Assembly: GCA_020072785.1 (NCBI GenBank)
Contig: JAIQGG010000002.1
Location: 1-64,000 of the forward strand
DNA length: 64,000 bases
Direction: 5' to 3'
Source: Terriglobia bacterium
GTDB lineage: Bacteria > Acidobacteriota > Terriglobia > Acidiferrales > UBA7541
Below, piece by piece: positions 6,425-21,230 of this stretch; positions within the stretch are counted from its first letter, which is position 1, and the number at the start of each line of letters is the position of its first letter. Under the pieces are notes generated by a model. The model was not told the DNA's origin, made no database searches, and was given only the letters and a program-made list of their open reading frames with translations. The position numbers were made by a program, and so were the translations under genes.

Positions 6425-6501
6425 CCGTGCCGGAAAATTGGAATTGTCAAGCGCGGCGCGCTCTTTGCGCCTCGGATTGGTTTTCGGAGCGATCGATCTC
6501 C

Positions 6502-6541
6502 GATTCCGGCCGGGTCGGAAAGATTCCGGCCGGGTCGGAAA
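6502..6541. repeat. Tandem 20-bp palindromic repeat (TCCGRCC-GGTCGGA family)
   Basis: Two identical 20-bp copies of GATTCCGGCCGGGTCGGAAA stand in tandem in the 268-bp gap between the regulator and galE. Variants of this unit recur at 11645, 23941, 31747 and 39172. Confidence 0.8.
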
Positions 6542-6692
6542 GAATCGCAACTTCAAGTATTGCAACCCGGTCGTTCCACAGGGGCGGCTTCCGCAGCCAC
6601 GCGGTCCTCTTTCGCGCTGACAAGTTTCCGCCTTCCTGTTAGTTTGTTTTGGCGAAGAATTTCGTTGCCCTCGGGAAGGGGGACTACTCGGC

Positions 6693-7673
6693 GTGAACAT
6701 TCTGGTGACCGGTGCCGCAGGCTATATCGGAAGCGTCTGCGCGGAAGTGCTCCTCGCCCGCGGCATGCGCGTGGTGGCTCTCGACAACCTGCAGGAGGGG
6801 CACCGCGCGGCCGTTCCCCCGCAGGCTGCCTTCGTCCACGCCGATCTCGCCAACCGCCCGGATCTCGACCGCGTCTTCGCCCAGCACCGCTTCGATGCCG
6901 TCATGCATTTTGCCGGGGAAGCCCTCGTCGCCAAGTCCATGCGCGAGCCCAGCACCTTTTTTGCCGCCAACGTCGCCTGCGGCGTCAATCTCCTCGACGC
7001 CATGGTCCGCCACGGCGTCGCCCAGTTCATCTTTTCCTCCACCGCCGCCACTTATGGCGAGCCGCAGATCGTTCCCATTCCCGAAGACCACCCCCAGAAG
7101 CCCATCAATCCCTATGGCAAATCCAAGCTGGTCTTCGAACAGATTCTCGCTGACTACGCCCAGTACACCGGCCTGCAGTATGTCGTCCTGCGCTATTTCA
7201 ATGCCGCCGGCGCCTCCCCCGCCCTCGGCGAGGCCCATCGCGAGGAAACCCACCTCATTCCCCGCGTGCTCGCCGCCGCCGCCGGCGACATCCCCTGCGT
7301 CGAGGTCTTCGGTACCGACTATCCCACGCCCGACGGTACCTGCGTCCGCGACTACGTGCACATCCTGGACATTGCCGAGGCTCACGTCCTGGCCCTCGAA
7401 TCCATCGCCCGCGTCACCGGCAACGCCTTCAATGTCGGCAACAGCCGCGGCTATTCCATCCTCGAAGTCATCGAAGCCGCCCGCCGCATCACCGGCCGGC
7501 CCATTCCCCACAAGCTCTCCCCGCGCCGTCCCGGCGACCCCGCTGTGCTCGTGGCCAGCGCCGAAAAGCTTCGCCGCGAGCTGCACTGGGAGCCCCGGCA
7601 CTCCTCGCTCGAAAATATCGTGGAAACCGCCTGGCGCTGGAAGCTGGCCCATCCCCATGGCTATCCGGAGTAG
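6693..7673 (+). CDS. galE: UDP-glucose 4-epimerase
   Basis: Extended short-chain dehydrogenase of 326 aa that interconverts UDP-glucose and UDP-galactose for cell-surface polysaccharides. The NAD Rossmann motif GAAGYIGS is at residues 7-14, the active Ser/Thr in SSTAATYG near 115-122, and catalytic Tyr141/Lys145 in NPYGKSK. GTG start at 6693 with a purine-rich GGAAGGGGG upstream. It ends 20 bp from a convergent glycosyltransferase gene, which fits a shared role in envelope sugars. Other NDP-sugar epimerases of this family share the motifs, so the exact substrate is the main uncertainty. Confidence 0.9.
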   Translation: MNILVTGAAGYIGSVCAEVLLARGMRVVALDNLQEGHRAAVPPQAAFVHADLANRPDLDRVFAQHRFDAVMHFAGEALVAKSMREPSTFFAANVACGVNLLDAMVRHGVAQFIFSSTAATYGEPQIVPIPEDHPQKPINPYGKSKLVFEQILADYAQYTGLQYVVLRYFNAAGASPALGEAHREETHLIPRVLAAAAGDIPCVEVFGTDYPTPDGTCVRDYVHILDIAEAHVLALESIARVTGNAFNVGNSRGYSILEVIEAARRITGRPIPHKLSPRRPGDPAVLVASAEKLRRELHWEPRHSSLENIVETAWRWKLAHPHGYPE

Positions 7674-7693
7674 GGAACAGGCCGGGGAATTTT

Positions 7694-8473
7694 CTAGTCG
7701 AACATCCGGTACCGGAAGATGAACCACAGCGCCTGCAGCCCGTCGCGCCAGGTGATTTTCTTGCCTTCCTCGTACGTCCGCCCCGCATAGGTAATCGGCA
7801 CTTCGTACACGCGCCAGTTGCCTTTGGCGATCTTCGCCGTGATCTCCGGCTCGAACCCGAAGCGGTTGGAACGCAGCCGGATGCCCGCCAGGACCTCTCG
7901 CCGGAAGACCTTGTAGCAGGTCTCCATGTCCGTCAGCTTCAGGTTGGTCAGCATGTCCGAAAGCAGCGTCAGCGCCTTGTTGGCCACGTAATGCCAGAAG
8001 TAGTGCACGCGTTGCGGCCCGCCCAGAAACCGCGACCCGTAGACCACGTCTGCGCGCCCGTCCAGGAGCGGCTCCAGCAGCTTCGGATAATCGCGCGGGT
8101 CGTATTCCAGGTCCGCGTCCTGCACCAGCACGATCTCCCCGCGCGCCTCGGCAAAGCCCCGCCGCAGCGCCGCGCCCTTTCCCTGATTCTTCTCCTGAAA
8201 GATAAAGCGCAGATCCTGTAGCGGAATGGCCTCGCGGCCGTCCTGTGCCTCCACCGCGGCCGCGCCCTGCGCCTGCCGCGCCTGCATCTTCTCCAGAATC
8301 TGCCGCGTCCCGTCCGTCGAGCAATCGTCCACCACCACCACTTCCTTGCGCTGCGGCGTTTCCAGCACGCGGCGCAGAATCTCTTCGATGGTGCCCTTTT
8401 CGTTGTAAACGGGAATGACCACGGAAACGGTCGGATCGATCAACGCGGCGGGATTGTAGCGTGGCGCAGTCAT
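7694..8473 (-). CDS. Family 2 glycosyltransferase, dolichol-phosphate-mannose-synthase-like
   Basis: A 259-aa GT-A enzyme: VSVVIPVYNEKGTIEEIL near the N-terminus binds the nucleotide sugar, VVVDDCSTDGT follows, and LVQDADLEYDP carries the metal-binding DxD. MDTCYKVF-like text (METCYKVFRREVL) and FEPEITAKI are typical of polyprenyl-phosphate sugar transferases. It likely loads a sugar onto a lipid carrier at the membrane; no C-terminal membrane helix is seen. The frame is open a further 62 codons upstream, but the ATG at 8473 precedes the conserved part; no clear Shine-Dalgarno. Convergent with galE. Confidence 0.88.
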   Translation of the reverse strand: MTAPRYNPAALIDPTVSVVIPVYNEKGTIEEILRRVLETPQRKEVVVVDDCSTDGTRQILEKMQARQAQGAAAVEAQDGREAIPLQDLRFIFQEKNQGKGAALRRGFAEARGEIVLVQDADLEYDPRDYPKLLEPLLDGRADVVYGSRFLGGPQRVHYFWHYVANKALTLLSDMLTNLKLTDMETCYKVFRREVLAGIRLRSNRFGFEPEITAKIAKGNWRVYEVPITYAGRTYEEGKKITWRDGLQALWFIFRYRMFD

Positions 8474-16082: not shown

Positions 16083-16886
16083 TTGCGCGTATCCATTCTG
16101 GCGTCCGGCAGCTCGGGCAACATGACCCTGCTCGAGACCCCGCACACCCGCCTCCTCGTGGACGCCGGACTCGGCAAGCGCGAAACCCTCGCCCGTCTCG
16201 CCGCCCTCGGCATCGACCTCGATGGCCTCGACGGCATCGTCATCTCCCACGAGCACACCGACCACTGCAGCGGCCTTCCCCAGGTCCTCGGCCTGTGGAA
16301 AGCCCCGCTCTACGTCACCGAGCCCACCCTGGACGCCCTCCAGCGCACCCTCCCGGACACTTTCGGCAAGCGCCTCGCCGCCGTCGAAACCATTCACGCC
16401 GGCCAGTGCTTCACCGTCGGCGACATCGAGGTCCACGCCTTCGCCATCCCCCACGACGCCGCCGATCCCATCGGCTTCACCTTCCGCAGCAACGGCAGCA
16501 AGATGGCTCTGGTCACCGATCTCGGCTACATGCCTGAGCTCGTCAAGCACCACCTCCGCGACGCCGATTGCCTCATGCTCGAATCCAATCACGATCTGGA
16601 CATGCTCAAGGTCGGCCCCTATCCCTGGGTCGTCAAGCAGCGCGTCCTCAGCCGCACCGGGCATCTCTCCAATCATGCGGTCAGCGAATATCTCTGCGAT
16701 CCCGAAGGCTTCGACGCCCGCGCCCGCTTTCTCGTCCTCGCCCATCTCTCCGAGCAGAACAACAACCCCGAGCTGGCGCGCATCTCCGCCGAAGAAGCCT
16801 TGAACCGCCGCCCCCCCGAAGCCCCCTTCCGCGGCGAACTCCTCATCGCCTCCCAGCAACTCCCCCTCCAGCCCCTCGATCTCTAG
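16083..16886 (+). CDS. YycJ/WalJ-like metallo-beta-lactamase-fold hydrolase
   Basis: 267 aa. The metal motif HxHxDH is H56-H58-D60-H61 in SHEHTDH; GSSGN near the start and GHLSNH toward the end are typical of the YycJ branch, proposed to be an exonuclease involved in DNA repair or cell-wall coordination. Later ligands are in VTDLGYM and the final LAHLSEQNN. The start is probably TTG at 16083 (L/M-RVSILASGSSGN); no ATG is available at this point. A terminator follows at 16924. Confidence 0.87.
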   Translation: MRVSILASGSSGNMTLLETPHTRLLVDAGLGKRETLARLAALGIDLDGLDGIVISHEHTDHCSGLPQVLGLWKAPLYVTEPTLDALQRTLPDTFGKRLAAVETIHAGQCFTVGDIEVHAFAIPHDAADPIGFTFRSNGSKMALVTDLGYMPELVKHHLRDADCLMLESNHDLDMLKVGPYPWVVKQRVLSRTGHLSNHAVSEYLCDPEGFDARARFLVLAHLSEQNNNPELARISAEEALNRRPPEAPFRGELLIASQQLPLQPLDL

Positions 16887-16955: not shown

Positions 16956-17131
16956 ATGCTTTGCCCGCCTGGAAACGGCCCCTGCACTTGTTCTAGCCCT
17001 TTTTTCGCAGCCTGCTAACTTTTTCCTTACCTCCTCCCCTCCGAACTTTCATTGACGGGATAGGAGATAGGGCCGTCGTAAAGCTCATGCGCGTGCGCTG
17101 GCGCCGCGACGCCAACGCGGCGATTCCACTT

Positions 17132-17156
17132 GTCCGGTTATCCGACTTATCAGGAC
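17132..17156. repeat. GATAA-type hairpin, copy a
   Basis: GTCCGGTTA...TTATCAGGAC, an imperfect stem, lies upstream of the 17238 gene. It belongs to a six-copy family with consensus arms GTCCYGATAA/TTATCRGGAC and an ACGNC-like loop. Confidence 0.6.
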
Positions 17157-17237
17157 TTGGCAGCAAGCGTTCCATCTACATCGCGCTATACTGCCACCTG
17201 ACCACTCGTACGCGATCCTCGTCTTGGCGAGGAACAT

Positions 17238-17888
17238 ATGGATCGATTGAAATTATTCGTGGCCCTAGTCGTGCTTCTGTGTACCGACGCGGTTCTCGTT
17301 GGGTCGGCGCAAGACAAACAAGACCAATTGACCATAGATGCAACGAAACAGCAGTCGGGTCCCGTCCGGGGCCGTGGCCCCTTTCCGGGCTCCCCTACTC
17401 CGGGCCACTCAGCGGGTCTGCCTATTCGGCTTGAGCTGCAGGTTCCAACCGGTGAACTGCGACCCGACGGAACAACAGTCGTTGATTTCATAATTACCAA
17501 CGTCGGGACTGAACCCATCAAACTTCCTTCTATTCTTGTTAACCCCGATAACGAGGGGACGGAGGTCCTTACCTTATGGTTGACCTCAGACGCAATCAGG
17601 GACCAGTATCTGAAAAATCGAAACGGGGGTTTGGTCAGGATAGAGTCTGTCCCGCTAAGTGCAAAGCTATATGGGCGAGACGACGACCCAACGAGCTCTT
17701 ATGCACTTGCCCCGAATAAGTCAATTCGAGTGCACGGTTCCTCACCTCAGTTGAAAGCAGGAACCTATTCGCTCATAGCTCATGCCGAGCTTGTTCGCCT
17801 TTCGAATGGGACCTCCAACGGATTAGGCACGGCAGACTCGGATGCTGTAACGAAGACCTTTTCAACAATTAGTCCCACATCTCGATAA
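17238..17888 (+). CDS. Secreted protein of unknown function
   Basis: 216 aa. Residues 1-24 (MDRLKLFVALVVLLCTDAVLVGSA) form a signal peptide. The body has a Pro/Gly-rich linker (GRGPFPGSPTPGH) and a beta-rich segment, LELQVPTGELRPDGTTVVDF, followed by IITNVGTEPIKLP, reminiscent of a small Ig-like or CARDB-like fold; no catalytic motif is seen. GAGG sits 7 nt before the ATG at 17238. The stop codon lies within hairpin copy b, and hairpin copy a precedes the gene, so it is framed by repeats inside the 17057-19899 element. Base composition is lower in GC than in the core genes. I do not recognise a named family. Confidence 0.75.
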   Translation: MDRLKLFVALVVLLCTDAVLVGSAQDKQDQLTIDATKQQSGPVRGRGPFPGSPTPGHSAGLPIRLELQVPTGELRPDGTTVVDFIITNVGTEPIKLPSILVNPDNEGTEVLTLWLTSDAIRDQYLKNRNGGLVRIESVPLSAKLYGRDDDPTSSYALAPNKSIRVHGSSPQLKAGTYSLIAHAELVRLSNGTSNGLGTADSDAVTKTFSTISPTSR

Positions 17889-17904
17889 ACGCGCTTACCG
17901 GAGA
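17880..17904. repeat. GATAA-type hairpin, copy b
   Basis: TCTCGATAA...TTACCGGAGA, an imperfect stem with loop ACGCGC, overlaps the stop codon of the 17238 gene. Confidence 0.5.
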
Positions 17905-17928
17905 AGTCGGTGCACGGACGGTAGCCTT

Positions 17929-18369
17929 CTAAGCTGGAGGCCACAATTCCACCTTGACCCCAGCTTCTTCCAAAAGGCGTACCAATTCTTCTCTATTTCG
18001 CTTGATTGAGGCATTGTCGCCGGGGGCACGTACTCCGTTCTCTTGCACTGCTACGACGAGGCCATAGGGCCATGCGATGGACGGTAATTTTTCCAAGTAC
18101 GCGACCACGTCCGCAGGTGACATCGTTGGCGTGTCCGTAGCGGCGCTGCTTGGTCGGGCATCAATCCCGTTGGCTTGCACCATCAGATAGGGATTCAGCC
18201 AATCACGCGCATCCACAACGGAGCGGTACTTATTCGAGTCCGCAGGAGGGATGCGATTCTTGAGCGTGGATGTTCCTCTGTCGGCGACCCTCTGCATACT
18301 CGTGCGCTGCGAGCAGGAAGCGACAGCAATTACTGCACACAGGGAAGCCGCAAGTAGGCATCGTGCCAT
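17929..18369 (-). CDS. Small lipoprotein of unknown function
   Basis: 146 aa from the ATG at 18369. MARCLLAASLCAVIAVASCSQR looks like a lipoprotein signal peptide with Cys after VAS, so it is probably membrane-anchored and exported. The mature part contains WLNPYLMVQANGI, a SPADVVAYLEKLPSIAWPYG segment and an EELVRLLEEAGVKVELWPPA C-terminus, which looks like a small alpha/beta domain. On the minus strand TATAAT (18382-18377) ends 7 nt before the ATG, so the transcript is probably leaderless. Two more Met codons lie just upstream in frame but are on the promoter. No function recognised. Confidence 0.7.
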   Translation of the reverse strand: MARCLLAASLCAVIAVASCSQRTSMQRVADRGTSTLKNRIPPADSNKYRSVVDARDWLNPYLMVQANGIDARPSSAATDTPTMSPADVVAYLEKLPSIAWPYGLVVAVQENGVRAPGDNASIKRNREELVRLLEEAGVKVELWPPA

Positions 18370-18435
18370 GCGTCGCATTATAGCCTGAATTTGTCTCCGC
18401 ATTTACGCGGGGCAACTTGGCAGAATCGGGGTCAG

Positions 18436-18460
18436 GTCCTGGTAAACGACTTATCAGGAC
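18436..18460. repeat. GATAA-type hairpin, copy c
   Basis: GTCCTGGTAA (18436-18445) pairs with TTATCAGGAC (18451-18460) with one G-T wobble; loop ACGAC. It separates the lipoprotein gene from the PLP-enzyme gene. Confidence 0.75.
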
Positions 18461-18499
18461 TTACGGCAGTTCGCTGACAGATTGTTTCCGAGTAGCCCG

Positions 18500-19642
18500 T
18501 CATACGGCCATGTTGCGCAGCGCTCGATCCAGATCGGTCCAAAGGTCCTCGACGGCCTCGATACCCACGCTCAGCCGCAGCAGCGCCGGAGGCAGGTGCT
18601 CCTGCCCAGGAATGCTGGCCCGCCGTTCGATGGTGGACTCGACCGCGCCCAGGCTGGTTGCGTGTTGGATGAGCTGCAGCCCGGCGCATACGGCGTCAGC
18701 GGCGGGGGCGCCGCCACGCACGTCGAACGAGATAATCGTGCCGAAGCCCTTGAGTTGGCGTCGCGCGGCCTCGTGAGTTGGGTGGCTCGCCAGGCCGGGG
18801 TAGCGCGTCAGAGTGATGTTTGGATGACGCGCGAGGCGCTCGGCCAGTGTCATCGCGTTGCGCTGCGCACGCTCCAGCCGCAGCGCCAGCGTCCTAGCCC
18901 CGCGGACCGCGAGAAACGTTTCGAGGGTGCCGGGTGTTGCACCCGCCAGCTCCCGGGCCTGCCGCAGCGCGGCCAGCAGGTTCGCGTCGCGCACGGTGAC
19001 GACACCGCCGAGTAGGTCCGAGTGTCCACCGATGAACTTCGTCACCGATTGCACAGCCACGTCGGCCCCGAGCGCCAGTGGACGCTGATTGAGCGGCGTA
19101 GCGAATGTGTTGTCCACGCCCAGGATCGCGCCACGCTTCCGCGGTGCGGCGCAGATGGCGTCCAGGTCAGCCACTGTCAGCAGAGGGTTTGAAGGCGACT
19201 CCAGCCAAATCAAGTCGGCCACGCCGCACATCTTGATCCAGCCTGCGGTGTCGGCCACGGCGACGCGATGCACGGTCCACCGGCCGCGGCTTTGGCCAGC
19301 TTTGGCGAGTCCCGCGACACCCTGGTAGCAGTCGTCCGACAAGGCCACGACCGAGCCTGTGTGGAGTTGATCGAAAATCGCCGCGATCCCCGCCATGCCG
19401 GAGGCGAAGGAGACCGAAGAGCCACCTTCGAGGCCGCCGACGATCTCTTCCAGTGCCTCCCAACTCGGCGTGCCGTCGTCGCGAGAGTACGCACGGCGCT
19501 CGCCCAGCACGAAGTTCGACGCCGGGCATGGCGGTACATTTAGCGGCGAGCCGGGGCGCCGGTCCCGTCCTGCCGAGACCAGCCACGATTCGACCGAACC
19601 TGGATCACCCGCGTTGTGCCCTGTCTTATCCCTCGATGTCAT
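18500..19642 (-). CDS. Cystathionine gamma-lyase/synthase family PLP enzyme
   Basis: 380-aa Cys/Met-metabolism PLP-dependent enzyme. The cofactor lysine is in SVTKFIGGHSDLLGG; SFASGMAGIAAIF, ESPSNPLLTVADL and VDNTFATP are the usual phosphate- and ring-binding blocks. The N-terminus (RAYSRDDGTPSWEALEEIVGGLEGG) resembles the trans-sulfuration enzymes of actinobacteria, which would fit acquisition by transfer, but this is inference. It could act on cystathionine, homocysteine or methionine; sequence alone does not decide. It is the only enzyme gene in the 17057-19899 element, bounded by hairpin copies c and d. Confidence 0.88.
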   Translation of the reverse strand: MTSRDKTGHNAGDPGSVESWLVSAGRDRRPGSPLNVPPCPASNFVLGERRAYSRDDGTPSWEALEEIVGGLEGGSSVSFASGMAGIAAIFDQLHTGSVVALSDDCYQGVAGLAKAGQSRGRWTVHRVAVADTAGWIKMCGVADLIWLESPSNPLLTVADLDAICAAPRKRGAILGVDNTFATPLNQRPLALGADVAVQSVTKFIGGHSDLLGGVVTVRDANLLAALRQARELAGATPGTLETFLAVRGARTLALRLERAQRNAMTLAERLARHPNITLTRYPGLASHPTHEAARRQLKGFGTIISFDVRGGAPAADAVCAGLQLIQHATSLGAVESTIERRASIPGQEHLPPALLRLSVGIEAVEDLWTDLDRALRNMAV

Positions 19643-19747
19643 TGCTCGATTTTAGCAAATGGCCCCTTCCTAGGAAACACGACCATTGATGCCCTGGACC
19701 GTTGGCCCACGTGTGTATCGTCGGCCACTCGGATCTAACCATCTAGG

Positions 19748-19775
19748 TCCCGATAAACGCAGCATTTATCGGACA
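19748..19775. repeat. GATAA-type hairpin, copy d
   Basis: GTCCCGATAAA (19748-19758) pairs with TTTATCGGAC (19766-19775) with one bulged C; loop CGCAGCA. It lies upstream of the PLP-enzyme gene and inside the right end of the element. A separate perfect hairpin, GGCCGTTTTGAACGGCC, is at 19870-19886. Confidence 0.75.
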
Positions 19776-19908
19776 AGTGAAATCACCGCGTTGGCCTCGC
19801 GCCGCCGACACACGCCATGAGCTTTGCGGGCATCCCCGCCGCAAATTGCACCACACTAGTGCAAAATTGGCCGTTTTGAACGGCCCTATCTCCTATCCCA
19901 AACTTTCA

Positions 19909-19937
19909 TTGACACTCCTGGCGCCCTCCCCTACACT
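19909..19937 (+). promoter_or_regulatory. Promoter of the lysine-riboswitch/dap operon
   Basis: TTGACA (19909-19914), a 17-bp spacer and TACACT (19932-19937). The first five bases of the -35 box belong to the 13-bp direct repeat flanking the element at 17057-19899. Confidence 0.75.
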
Positions 19938-19944
19938 TTCTAAG

Positions 19945-20133
19945 TTCTTGGTAGAGGCGCGGAAGCCATCAGTAGCCGGGCGCGCAGTTCCGAGCAGCAT
20001 CGGAGCTCCTGGCCAAAGGGGCACAGCAGTTTTCCGCCGAAGTCGCTGCGTTCGCTGAAACCGCAGCGGTTGGGGGCTCAGGTCTAAGGCCTGTCCACTG
20101 TCATCCGTGAAAACGGGTGGAGCGCTATCGAGT
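19945..20133 (+). promoter_or_regulatory. Lysine riboswitch (L box)
   Basis: The conserved L-box blocks appear in order: GGTAGAGGCGCGGAA (19950), AGTAGCC (19971), AAAGGGGCAC (about 20018), CGCCGAAGTCGC (about 20037), GGTTGGGGGCT (about 20070), AAGGCCTGTC (about 20087) and GGTGGAGCGCTATCGAG (about 20117). The GGTAG and CTATC ends can form the closing P1 stem. It lies between the promoter at 19909 and a diaminopimelate/lysine operon, exactly where lysine-sensing control is expected. The expression platform (about 20134-20200) is not resolved; a CGAG/CTCG hairpin followed by T-rich sequence is a candidate terminator. Confidence 0.85.
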
Positions 20134-20204
20134 GGCAGCGGCCCCGAGCCTTACCTCGCGGTTTCTCCTTCTCGTTTCGTTTCCCCCTGAAATGCCCGGT
20201 GCAA

Positions 20205-21230
20205 ATGAATCTTTTTGAATTGACGCGTGCCCTCGTGGACATCGACTCGGTCACCAATCACGAGCAGCAGGTCGGCGACTTCCTGCTGCGGCATCTCTCG
20301 CCCCTCGTCAACTCCTTTGGCGGGCATCTCGAGCAGATGGAAGCCGGGCCGCAGCGCAACAACGTCTTCGCTTGCTGGGGCCAGCCCGTGGTCACCCTCT
20401 CCACGCACATGGATACCGTGCCGCCCTTCTTCGCTTCCCGCGAGGATGACGGCTTCCTCTGGGGCCGCGGCGCCTGCGACGCCAAAGGCATCGTCGCGGC
20501 CATGATCGCCGCCGCGGAAAAACTCCTGGCCGGCGGCACCCGCAATTTCGGCCTGCTCTTCGTCGTCGGCGAGGAGCGCAACAGCGCCGGTGCCCAAGCT
20601 GCCGCCGCGAATCCCCGCGGCTCGCGCTTCCTCATCAACGGCGAGCCCACCGAAAACCGTCTGGCGCTCGGCTCCCAGGGCGCGCTGCGCTACGAAATCA
20701 CCGCCCAGGGAAAACTCGCGCACTCGGCCTATCCCGAGCTCGGCCATTCCGCCATCCACGCGCTTCTCGATGTTCTGCACGACATCCGGCAAATTCCCCT
20801 GCCCGAAGATCCGCTGCTCGGCCGCAGCACCCTGAATATCGGCACCATCTCCGGCGGCCGCGCCCCCAACGTCGTCGCCGACCACGCCCAGGCGGAAATC
20901 ATGTTCCGCCTCGTCGGCGATCCCGCGGAACTCCGCACAGCCGTCTCTGCGGCCGCCGCCAACCGCGCCGAAGCCCGCGAAGTCCTCTACACGCCCGCGC
21001 TGCGCCTCGCCGCTCTTGAGGGCCTGCCCACCACGGTGGTCGCCTTCACCACCGATATCCCCACCTTCGCCGGCGCCTGGGGAACGCCCTTCCTGATTGG
21101 CCCGGGCAACATTCATGTGGCGCACACCGCCGAGGAACGCATTTCCAAGAAGGAATTATCGGAAGCCGTGGAAATCTACGCGCGCATGGTCAAGCAGCTT
21201 CTCGCCACCGGGCAGGGAATCGCCCGATGA
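20205..21230 (+). CDS. M20 family metallohydrolase, probable succinyl-diaminopimelate desuccinylase
   Basis: 341 aa, first gene of the operon. Two-zinc M20 motifs: LSTHMDTVPPF, WGRGACDAKG and VVGEERNSAG; the inserted dimerisation domain (GKLAHSAYPELGHSA) follows. Sitting with dapB, dapA and the succinyltransferase dapD under a lysine riboswitch, it is most likely the DapE step that removes succinate from N-succinyl-LL-diaminopimelate. It is somewhat shorter than proteobacterial DapE, and ArgE or LysK-type deacylases share the motifs. ATG at 20205 preferred over a GTG six bases upstream; the Shine-Dalgarno is poor. Its stop overlaps the dapB start by 4 bp. Confidence 0.85.
   Translation: MNLFELTRALVDIDSVTNHEQQVGDFLLRHLSPLVNSFGGHLEQMEAGPQRNNVFACWGQPVVTLSTHMDTVPPFFASREDDGFLWGRGACDAKGIVAAMIAAAEKLLAGGTRNFGLLFVVGEERNSAGAQAAAANPRGSRFLINGEPTENRLALGSQGALRYEITAQGKLAHSAYPELGHSAIHALLDVLHDIRQIPLPEDPLLGRSTLNIGTISGGRAPNVVADHAQAEIMFRLVGDPAELRTAVSAAAANRAEAREVLYTPALRLAALEGLPTTVVAFTTDIPTFAGAWGTPFLIGPGNIHVAHTAEERISKKELSEAVEIYARMVKQLLATGQGIAR

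Follow-up and report, generated by a model that had tools for sequence, protein, structure and literature searches.

A probable non-autonomous casposon carrying host-type genes at the promoter of a dapE-like gene in a soil acidobacterium

We analysed a 64,000-nucleotide stretch of DNA (the window; positions 1 to 64,000 of contig JAIQGG010000002.1, Terriglobia bacterium, assembly GCA_020072785.1). It contains a 2,843-bp element at 17057-19899 which is very probably a non-autonomous casposon, with casposon ends surrounding host-type cargo and without an integrase or polymerase of its own. Casposons are transposons whose movement normally depends on a relative of Cas1, a CRISPR enzyme; the CRISPR adaptation machinery is proposed to descend from them. 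Genomes, contigs and loci are cited below by our own G, C and L handles.

Ends and cargo of the window element

A sequence-only reading of this region had described 20-bp inverted ends, and these were found as claimed: GGGATAGGAGATAGGGCCGT occurs exactly at 17057-17076 (plus strand) and 19880-19899 (minus strand), with no third site in the window at up to three mismatches and none in shuffled sequences. The perfect ends lie within an imperfect inverted repeat of about 140 bp, in which 17077-17089 pairs with 19816-19828 and 17091-17136 with 19770-19815; by alignment, about 55 bp of the right arm is missing from the left. Outside the ends, AACTTTCATTGAC is present exactly at 17044-17056 and 19901-19913 (mean of 0.02 in shuffles), and a chance origin of the ends and direct repeats was rejected on these counts. 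The 13-bp repeat of the earlier reading is thus real, but it is better described as 14 bp with one mismatch (13/14; GAACTTTCATTGAC at 17043-17056 and AAACTTTCATTGAC at 19900-19913). The odd additional A at 19900 is explained because the repeat is 14 bp long, with 14/14 copies in relatives. Near the inner edge of long ends a subterminal motif, CACTTGTCCG, recurs (17128-17158, 18436-18462 and 19765-19790 in the window; also in L130, L053, L061 and L157); letters resembling CTTATCAGGACTT often follow it, and part of it is found within the element interior and in the ends of other elements.

Three open reading frames (ORFs) occupy the interior (Table 1) and, as had been noted from the sequence, none of them is a transposase. 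Only the pyridoxal phosphate (PLP) enzyme gene at 18500-19642 matched Pfam (Cys_Met_Meta_PP, 2.5e-86); its best NCBIfam model was cystathionine gamma-lyase PRK07582, under the cut-off (340 vs 440 bits). The cargo had been called metabolic genes, which suits the PLP enzyme but not clearly the other two. None of the three proteins had a relative outside the window's own locus among the loci compared.

Terminal inverted repeats and a direct target duplication of about 14-15 bp, both defining features of the casposon superfamily, are present in the window element. The two defining genes are absent from it: no cas1 (casposase) ORF lies inside, and tblastn of the polymerase of relative G012 gave no match in the window. 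The window genome, which is 98.9% complete, yielded no casposase in a single-sequence search or with a 14-row profile at E ≤ 1. Since cas1 is missing from both the element and the genome, we class the element as a non-autonomous derivative, not an autonomous casposon.

The same ends recur in the window genome around a second cas1-free element (C10:56024-57546, 1,523 bp, duplication 11/14), located upstream of the trigger factor gene. Cas1-free elements were also found in G092:C7 (6,704 bp, duplication 13/14) and G141 (5,338 bp, 20/20 ends, a shared 14-mer and a methylase-like gene by eye). A polymerase relic is present in the window genome at C2:353671-354381 (4e-46). Defence-like genes, named by eye from translations, lie beside this relic (G000:C2:348436-360046; L246/L247): E2/JAB/E1-like genes at 348436-352221, and a CBASS-resembling set of nucleotidyltransferase, E2-like and patatin-like genes at 357409-360046.

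Autonomous relatives encode a casposase and a polymerase

Elements with such ends and 14/14 duplications in G012:C66 (14,420 bp) and G009:C54 (17,083 bp) encode a Cas1 homologue (Pfam Cas_Cas1, 2.3e-38 and 4.7e-41, respectively) together with a polymerase. They are casposons by the published definition of Cas1, PolB, inverted ends and duplication (PMC4046053; papers given by PMC number are cited from excerpts). By sequence, the best solved relative of the Cas1 homologue was 6opm, the Methanosarcina mazei casposase (7.9e-18). The predicted fold again matched 6opm best (Foldseek 9.8e-17; entry titled casposase); TM-scores were modest, the AlphaFold model had a mean pLDDT of 74 and a pTM of 0.48, and it is the Foldseek E-value that carries this match. 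Fourteen casposases, 50-83% identical to the first, share four invariant cysteines and a C-terminal helix-turn-helix (HTH)-like stretch; E242/E244, H262, D274 and E277 are invariant in all 14, their catalytic assignment having been made by eye against the 6opm alignment. The gene adjoining cas1 encodes a B-family DNA polymerase (DNA_pol_B_2, PF03175, in 10 of 12, best 3.8e-7), for which a PDB profile search returned only a weak match, to DNA polymerase alpha (0.15).

Of 95 genomes from the order, 22 had a casposase (E ≤ 1e-5, fragments included); the figure was 24 of 399 for the class at 1e-40 and 8 of 396 for a sample of the phylum at 1e-50. Truncated cas1 copies occur in G146, G177 and G201:C2. 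No casposase was found on plasmids, and one IMG/VR contig matched (L244). Short ORFs matching the C-terminal HTH part of the casposase alone (about residues 410-512) were seen in G020:C18, G075:C71, G106:C105, G029:C157 and others, and are perhaps stand-alone HTH proteins or relics. Among the genes of the G009 casposon are those for a ThiF/DUF6791 E1-like protein and a Schlafen group 3 helicase (L157:2034-3239 and 6438-8345); with matches to the PADLOC models E1-E2, PDC-S41, Nhi and AbiO, they are candidate defence cargo. At L157 17669-18006, two casposon left ends of the same orientation flank a tRNA-Arg gene (by eye), and the outer end has 80% identity to the window's long end in its G007 form.

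Around 23 cas1 loci we searched de novo for inverted ends accompanied by a 14-bp duplication, with shuffles as the control. A 14/14 duplication and ends of 15-20/20 were recovered at 14 loci; the best shuffle reached 12/14 with 14/20. A 24th cas1 locus, from another class (G479), also had a 14/14 duplication and 20/20 ends, giving 15 single-contig pairs in 24 loci. G023 and G063 each have matching 14-mers that lie on two different contigs.

The ends themselves form a family. A 16-bp core with one mismatch allowed was found in 20 of 95 genomes of the order, a count that proves little by itself because a reversed control pattern matches about as many. Seventeen ends with a common second block, GAAACTGCCC, align without gaps, and a model built from them (R1) was searched against the 95 genomes: it matched in 66 at E ≤ 1, many of these weakly, with 46 matches at E < 0.01 by our own count. 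R1 recovered the ends of cas1-bearing elements of other families with E down to 2e-9, and over 32 positions the right end of the window element shares 21-27 with cas1-bearing ends. Single ends without a located partner are common. Two further candidates were set aside: an exact GGGATAGGAGATAGGGCCGT-type match in Candidatus Limivicinus (L016), where the 20-mer alone is shared, was taken as chance, and a single copy at G000:C1:387224 (one mismatch) is hairpin-like, with no -35 flank and no believable partner.

The sequence-only reading had suggested that the element could be a non-autonomous carrier whose mobilising enzyme has its gene in another place. The C10 element supports this, as do the casposase and polymerase in the relatives' elements. 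An enzyme outside the element fits, but it would be a Cas1-family casposase and not a classical transposase, and the site is a promoter -35 box. The second copy of the ends that it called for exists at C10, and casposase genes bounded by such ends exist in relatives but were not found in the window genome.

Insertion beside promoters

In the window, the target is a host promoter preceding a lysine riboswitch and the dapE-like gene (Table 1). A gene for a metallo-β-lactamase (MBL)-fold protein, which lies on the other side of the element, was matched at full or near-full length beside dapE in 15 of 29 relative loci (L019-L047) and partially in two; the gap between the two genes is about 335-520 bp in relatives (our own reading of coordinates), as against 3.3 kb in the window. 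G007, the nearest relative, carries this right end too, at the same promoter (94% identity over 861 bp). The block in the window is therefore an insertion. In G007, an IS30-like transposase gene (named by eye) lies directly inside the shared casposon end (L061, about 863-2080).

Read on one strand, the last five bases of the single-contig duplications from cas1 loci (15 in all) are TTGAC in 12 cases, TTGAG in one and TTGTC in one; the remaining one (G278) does not fit. We then scored the -10 element, using weights set by hand after the sigma-70 consensus, at 27 sites with a known downstream side (about 16 promoters by our own grouping), which had been picked by a TTGAC-like flank or a complete duplication and not by their -10. 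At a distance of 16-18 bp, 25 of the 27 scored above the 90th percentile of a control set of 1,551 TTGACs from elsewhere (Mann-Whitney 1.3e-15), and a strong -10 was present at 24 of 27 sites vs 24 of 114 control TTGACs located 30-200 bp upstream of an ORF (Fisher 6e-11). The two misses were G278 and G032 (L130), and the TTGAC of the latter abuts another casposon end. G479, which was fetched after the pattern had been noted, showed GGCCTCTGCTTGAC with AATACT 17 bp past the hexamer, in line with the prediction; its -10 score was moderate (2.87).

These motifs indicate that the casposon family inserts exactly beside predicted host-gene promoters, often those of housekeeping genes (Table 1). After insertion, the promoter next to the gene remains intact from the -35 through the spacer to the -10, and the host gene thus probably stays expressed.

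Table 1. Features of the window element and its surroundings (window coordinates), genes downstream of insertions in other genomes, and tandem elements. Downstream genes were named by eye from translations, except the window dapE.
Feature	Location	Strand	Remarks
Host MBL-fold hydrolase	16083..16886	+	Other side of insert; adjoins dapE in relatives without insert
Left copy of direct repeat	17043..17056	+	13/14; relatives 14/14
Left terminal inverted repeat	17057..17136	+	20-bp perfect end plus 60-bp subterminal repeat; ~55 bp shorter than right arm
Cargo ORF, 216 aa	17238..17888	+	Probable secreted protein (signal peptide by eye); no Pfam/NCBIfam match
Cargo ORF, 157 aa	17929..18402	-	Lipoprotein-like (lipobox by eye); no family match
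Cargo gene, 380 aa	18500..19642	-	Cys/Met-metabolism PLP enzyme
Right terminal inverted repeat	19758..19899	-	~142 bp, full-length form; 91% identity to G007 end
Right copy of direct repeat	19900..19913	+	
-35 hexamer TTGACA of host promoter	19909..19914	+	Duplication ends inside hexamer
-10 hexamer TACACT	19932..19937	+	17-bp spacer; 98.6th percentile of control TTGACs
Lysine riboswitch aptamer	19944..20135	+	First transcribed feature of target operon; Rfam RF00168, 70.2 bits
Host target gene (dapE-like)	20199..21230	+	M20 peptidase of DapE/ArgE group
Downstream: lysine riboswitch/dapE	Window element		
Downstream: trigger factor	Window genome C10		
Downstream: thiolase	G036, G109, G088		
Downstream: small Tat-signal protein	G012, G023, G020		
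Downstream: tyrosyl-tRNA synthetase	G095		
Downstream: RuvA	G015, G003		
Downstream: threonyl-tRNA synthetase	G304		
Downstream: valyl-tRNA synthetase	G276, G282, G141		
Tandem casposons, single 14-15-bp repeat between	L219 14186-14271; L229 12743-12800; L215 13460-13534; L130 5820-5960		

Tandem elements

Two ends facing apart with one 14-15-bp repeat between them were observed in G234, G201:C2, G050 and G032, and G141 has a second element, bounded on the promoter-distal side by a third copy of the 14-mer. Wherever it is visible, the promoter lies at one edge of the array. Tandem casposons are already known in archaea (PMC4046053, PMC10359463). We put forward tentatively, as an idea somewhat less likely to be right than wrong, that promoters of housekeeping genes serve acidobacterial casposons as a leader: the zinc ribbon and HTH of the casposase would read the -35 and -10, and insertion at the -35 box would build polarised arrays (element-14mer-element, promoter at one end), cargo-only units included. 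If so, such arrays would be living analogues of the leader-repeat-spacer array that park genes beside strong, permanent promoters. The comparison with CRISPR arrays is no more than an analogy, and these promoters fire away from the elements.

Alternative explanations and proposed mechanism

Classical DDE insertion-sequence families with long duplications, such as the IS4 group, whose target duplications measure 10-13 bp, typically show inverted ends and a duplication of about 13 bp, and the window element might be a miniature inverted-repeat transposable element with cargo whose transposase is encoded elsewhere. We consider this very improbable and rejected it, because Cas1 and PolB are encoded by the elements that have the two ends and a perfect duplication, and because each of the 15 cas1 loci with a single-contig pair shows a duplication of 14 bp. 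Less credible still is that the ends are a conserved regulatory repeat upstream of promoters and the direct repeats remnants of duplicated promoters. Such a repeat would agree with the R-type ends abutting a promoter and with the many single ends; it was rejected in view of the inverted ends and 14/14 duplications around large multigene blocks at 15 cas1 loci, the relatives that keep the gene order without the window block, and the different elements found at the same promoter in G234, G201 and G294. The window copy could, on the other hand, be a decayed autonomous casposon in which cas1 and polB were lost on the spot while the cargo remained, instead of having transposed as a non-autonomous unit. 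The polymerase relic in a genome devoid of casposase and the truncated cas1 copies elsewhere speak for such decay, whereas the paired-end, cas1-free elements at C10, G092:C7 and G141 speak against it as a general account; for the window copy itself we regard in-place decay as rather less likely than not, but clearly more likely than the two preceding explanations.

Several observations count against a non-autonomous casposon inserted at a promoter. No end pair was found at 9 of the 23 cas1 loci in the de novo search, several of which are near contig ends. The G278 duplication (CGCAATCTCGCCGT) has no -35 box and an ordinary -10 score. Among 41 distinct ends of the order (those scoring above 24), 15 have GTCAA and 6 TTGAC at the expected place and 20 have neither, many of these being one-base or shifted variants by eye. 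The 27 scored sites are not independent, the same promoter recurring in several genomes; of the grouped promoters, 14 were above the 90th percentile. An empty site had been proposed as a check on the insertion, and relatives do have the flanking genes in the same order with no insert between them, but the identical empty 14-mer was present in none of them, the empty loci having diverged. Finally, the element holds neither casposase nor polymerase, and movement in trans is therefore what we infer.

For a non-autonomous casposon, we propose that a Cas1-family casposase from an autonomous casposon, now absent from the genome, would join the ends to the target in trans. By the chemistry of archaeal casposases, a 14-bp staggered cut and subsequent gap repair would produce the 14-bp duplication. 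The target would be chosen at a promoter and cut inside the -35 hexamer (N9TTGAC / next base), so that the promoter-proximal side would retain the whole -35, spacer and -10. The invariant C-terminal zinc ribbon and HTH of the acidobacterial casposases would be the likeliest readers of the promoter, which may play the role of a leader by analogy with archaeal casposase targets. The latter consist of the duplicated segment and an upstream leader, and removal of the HTH abolishes activity (PMC6614799, PMC6977970).

Comparison with known systems

The closest described group is casposon family 3, which is bacterial (AceAut-C1, NitAL212-C1; Krupovic et al. 2014, PMC4046053). It shares with the acidobacterial elements the inverted ends, a duplication of about 14-15 bp, cas1 and polB in autonomous members, and HNH-like (by eye) and HTH genes nearby; the Cas1 of AceAut-C1 likewise ends in a zinc-binding domain followed by an HTH. 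This domain order agrees with a possible place in family 3. In contrast, the window copy lacks cas1 and polB, and the targets here are promoter -35 boxes, whereas the excerpted text of PMC4046053 gives tRNA 3' ends, aEF-2 and unspecified intergenic sites.

MetMaz-C1 of Methanosarcina mazei (PMC10359463, PMC6977970) also has a 14-bp duplication and ends starting GGGATA, and its casposase is the closest solved relative. It differs in being archaeal and in targeting tRNA-Leu 3' ends with a CGCA motif; laboratory mini-casposons move, and natural cargo-only ones are not described in the excerpts of these papers. A literature search combining casposon with promoter, cargo or non-autonomous found no promoter-targeted or cargo-only casposons in titles and opening abstracts, a scope that excluded Krupovic et al. 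2016. A search joining casposons and acidobacteria found only a soil cas1 survey, with casposons merely in its reference list. A survey of casposon diversity, as yet unpublished, has been announced by one group (PMC9966878). The targeting of promoters by casposons and the existence of cargo-only ones thus appear to be new.

With its many natural copies, clear promoter target and cargo-only derivatives, such a bacterial family would allow casposase targeting to be tested in bacteria. Its sites form a natural series from which one could learn what is read by the C-terminal domain, a point that PMC6977970 leaves open. Host-type and defence-type genes are also seen here as casposon cargo. Mobile insertion cassettes and the Tn3-derived TIME elements similarly place the ends of an autonomous transposon around cargo without a transposase, but depend on DDE transposases and not on a Cas1-family integrase. 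A choice of site that spares an essential host gene is shared with Tn7, a comparison made in PMC4046053; Tn7 uses other enzymes and inserts behind glmS, not at promoters.

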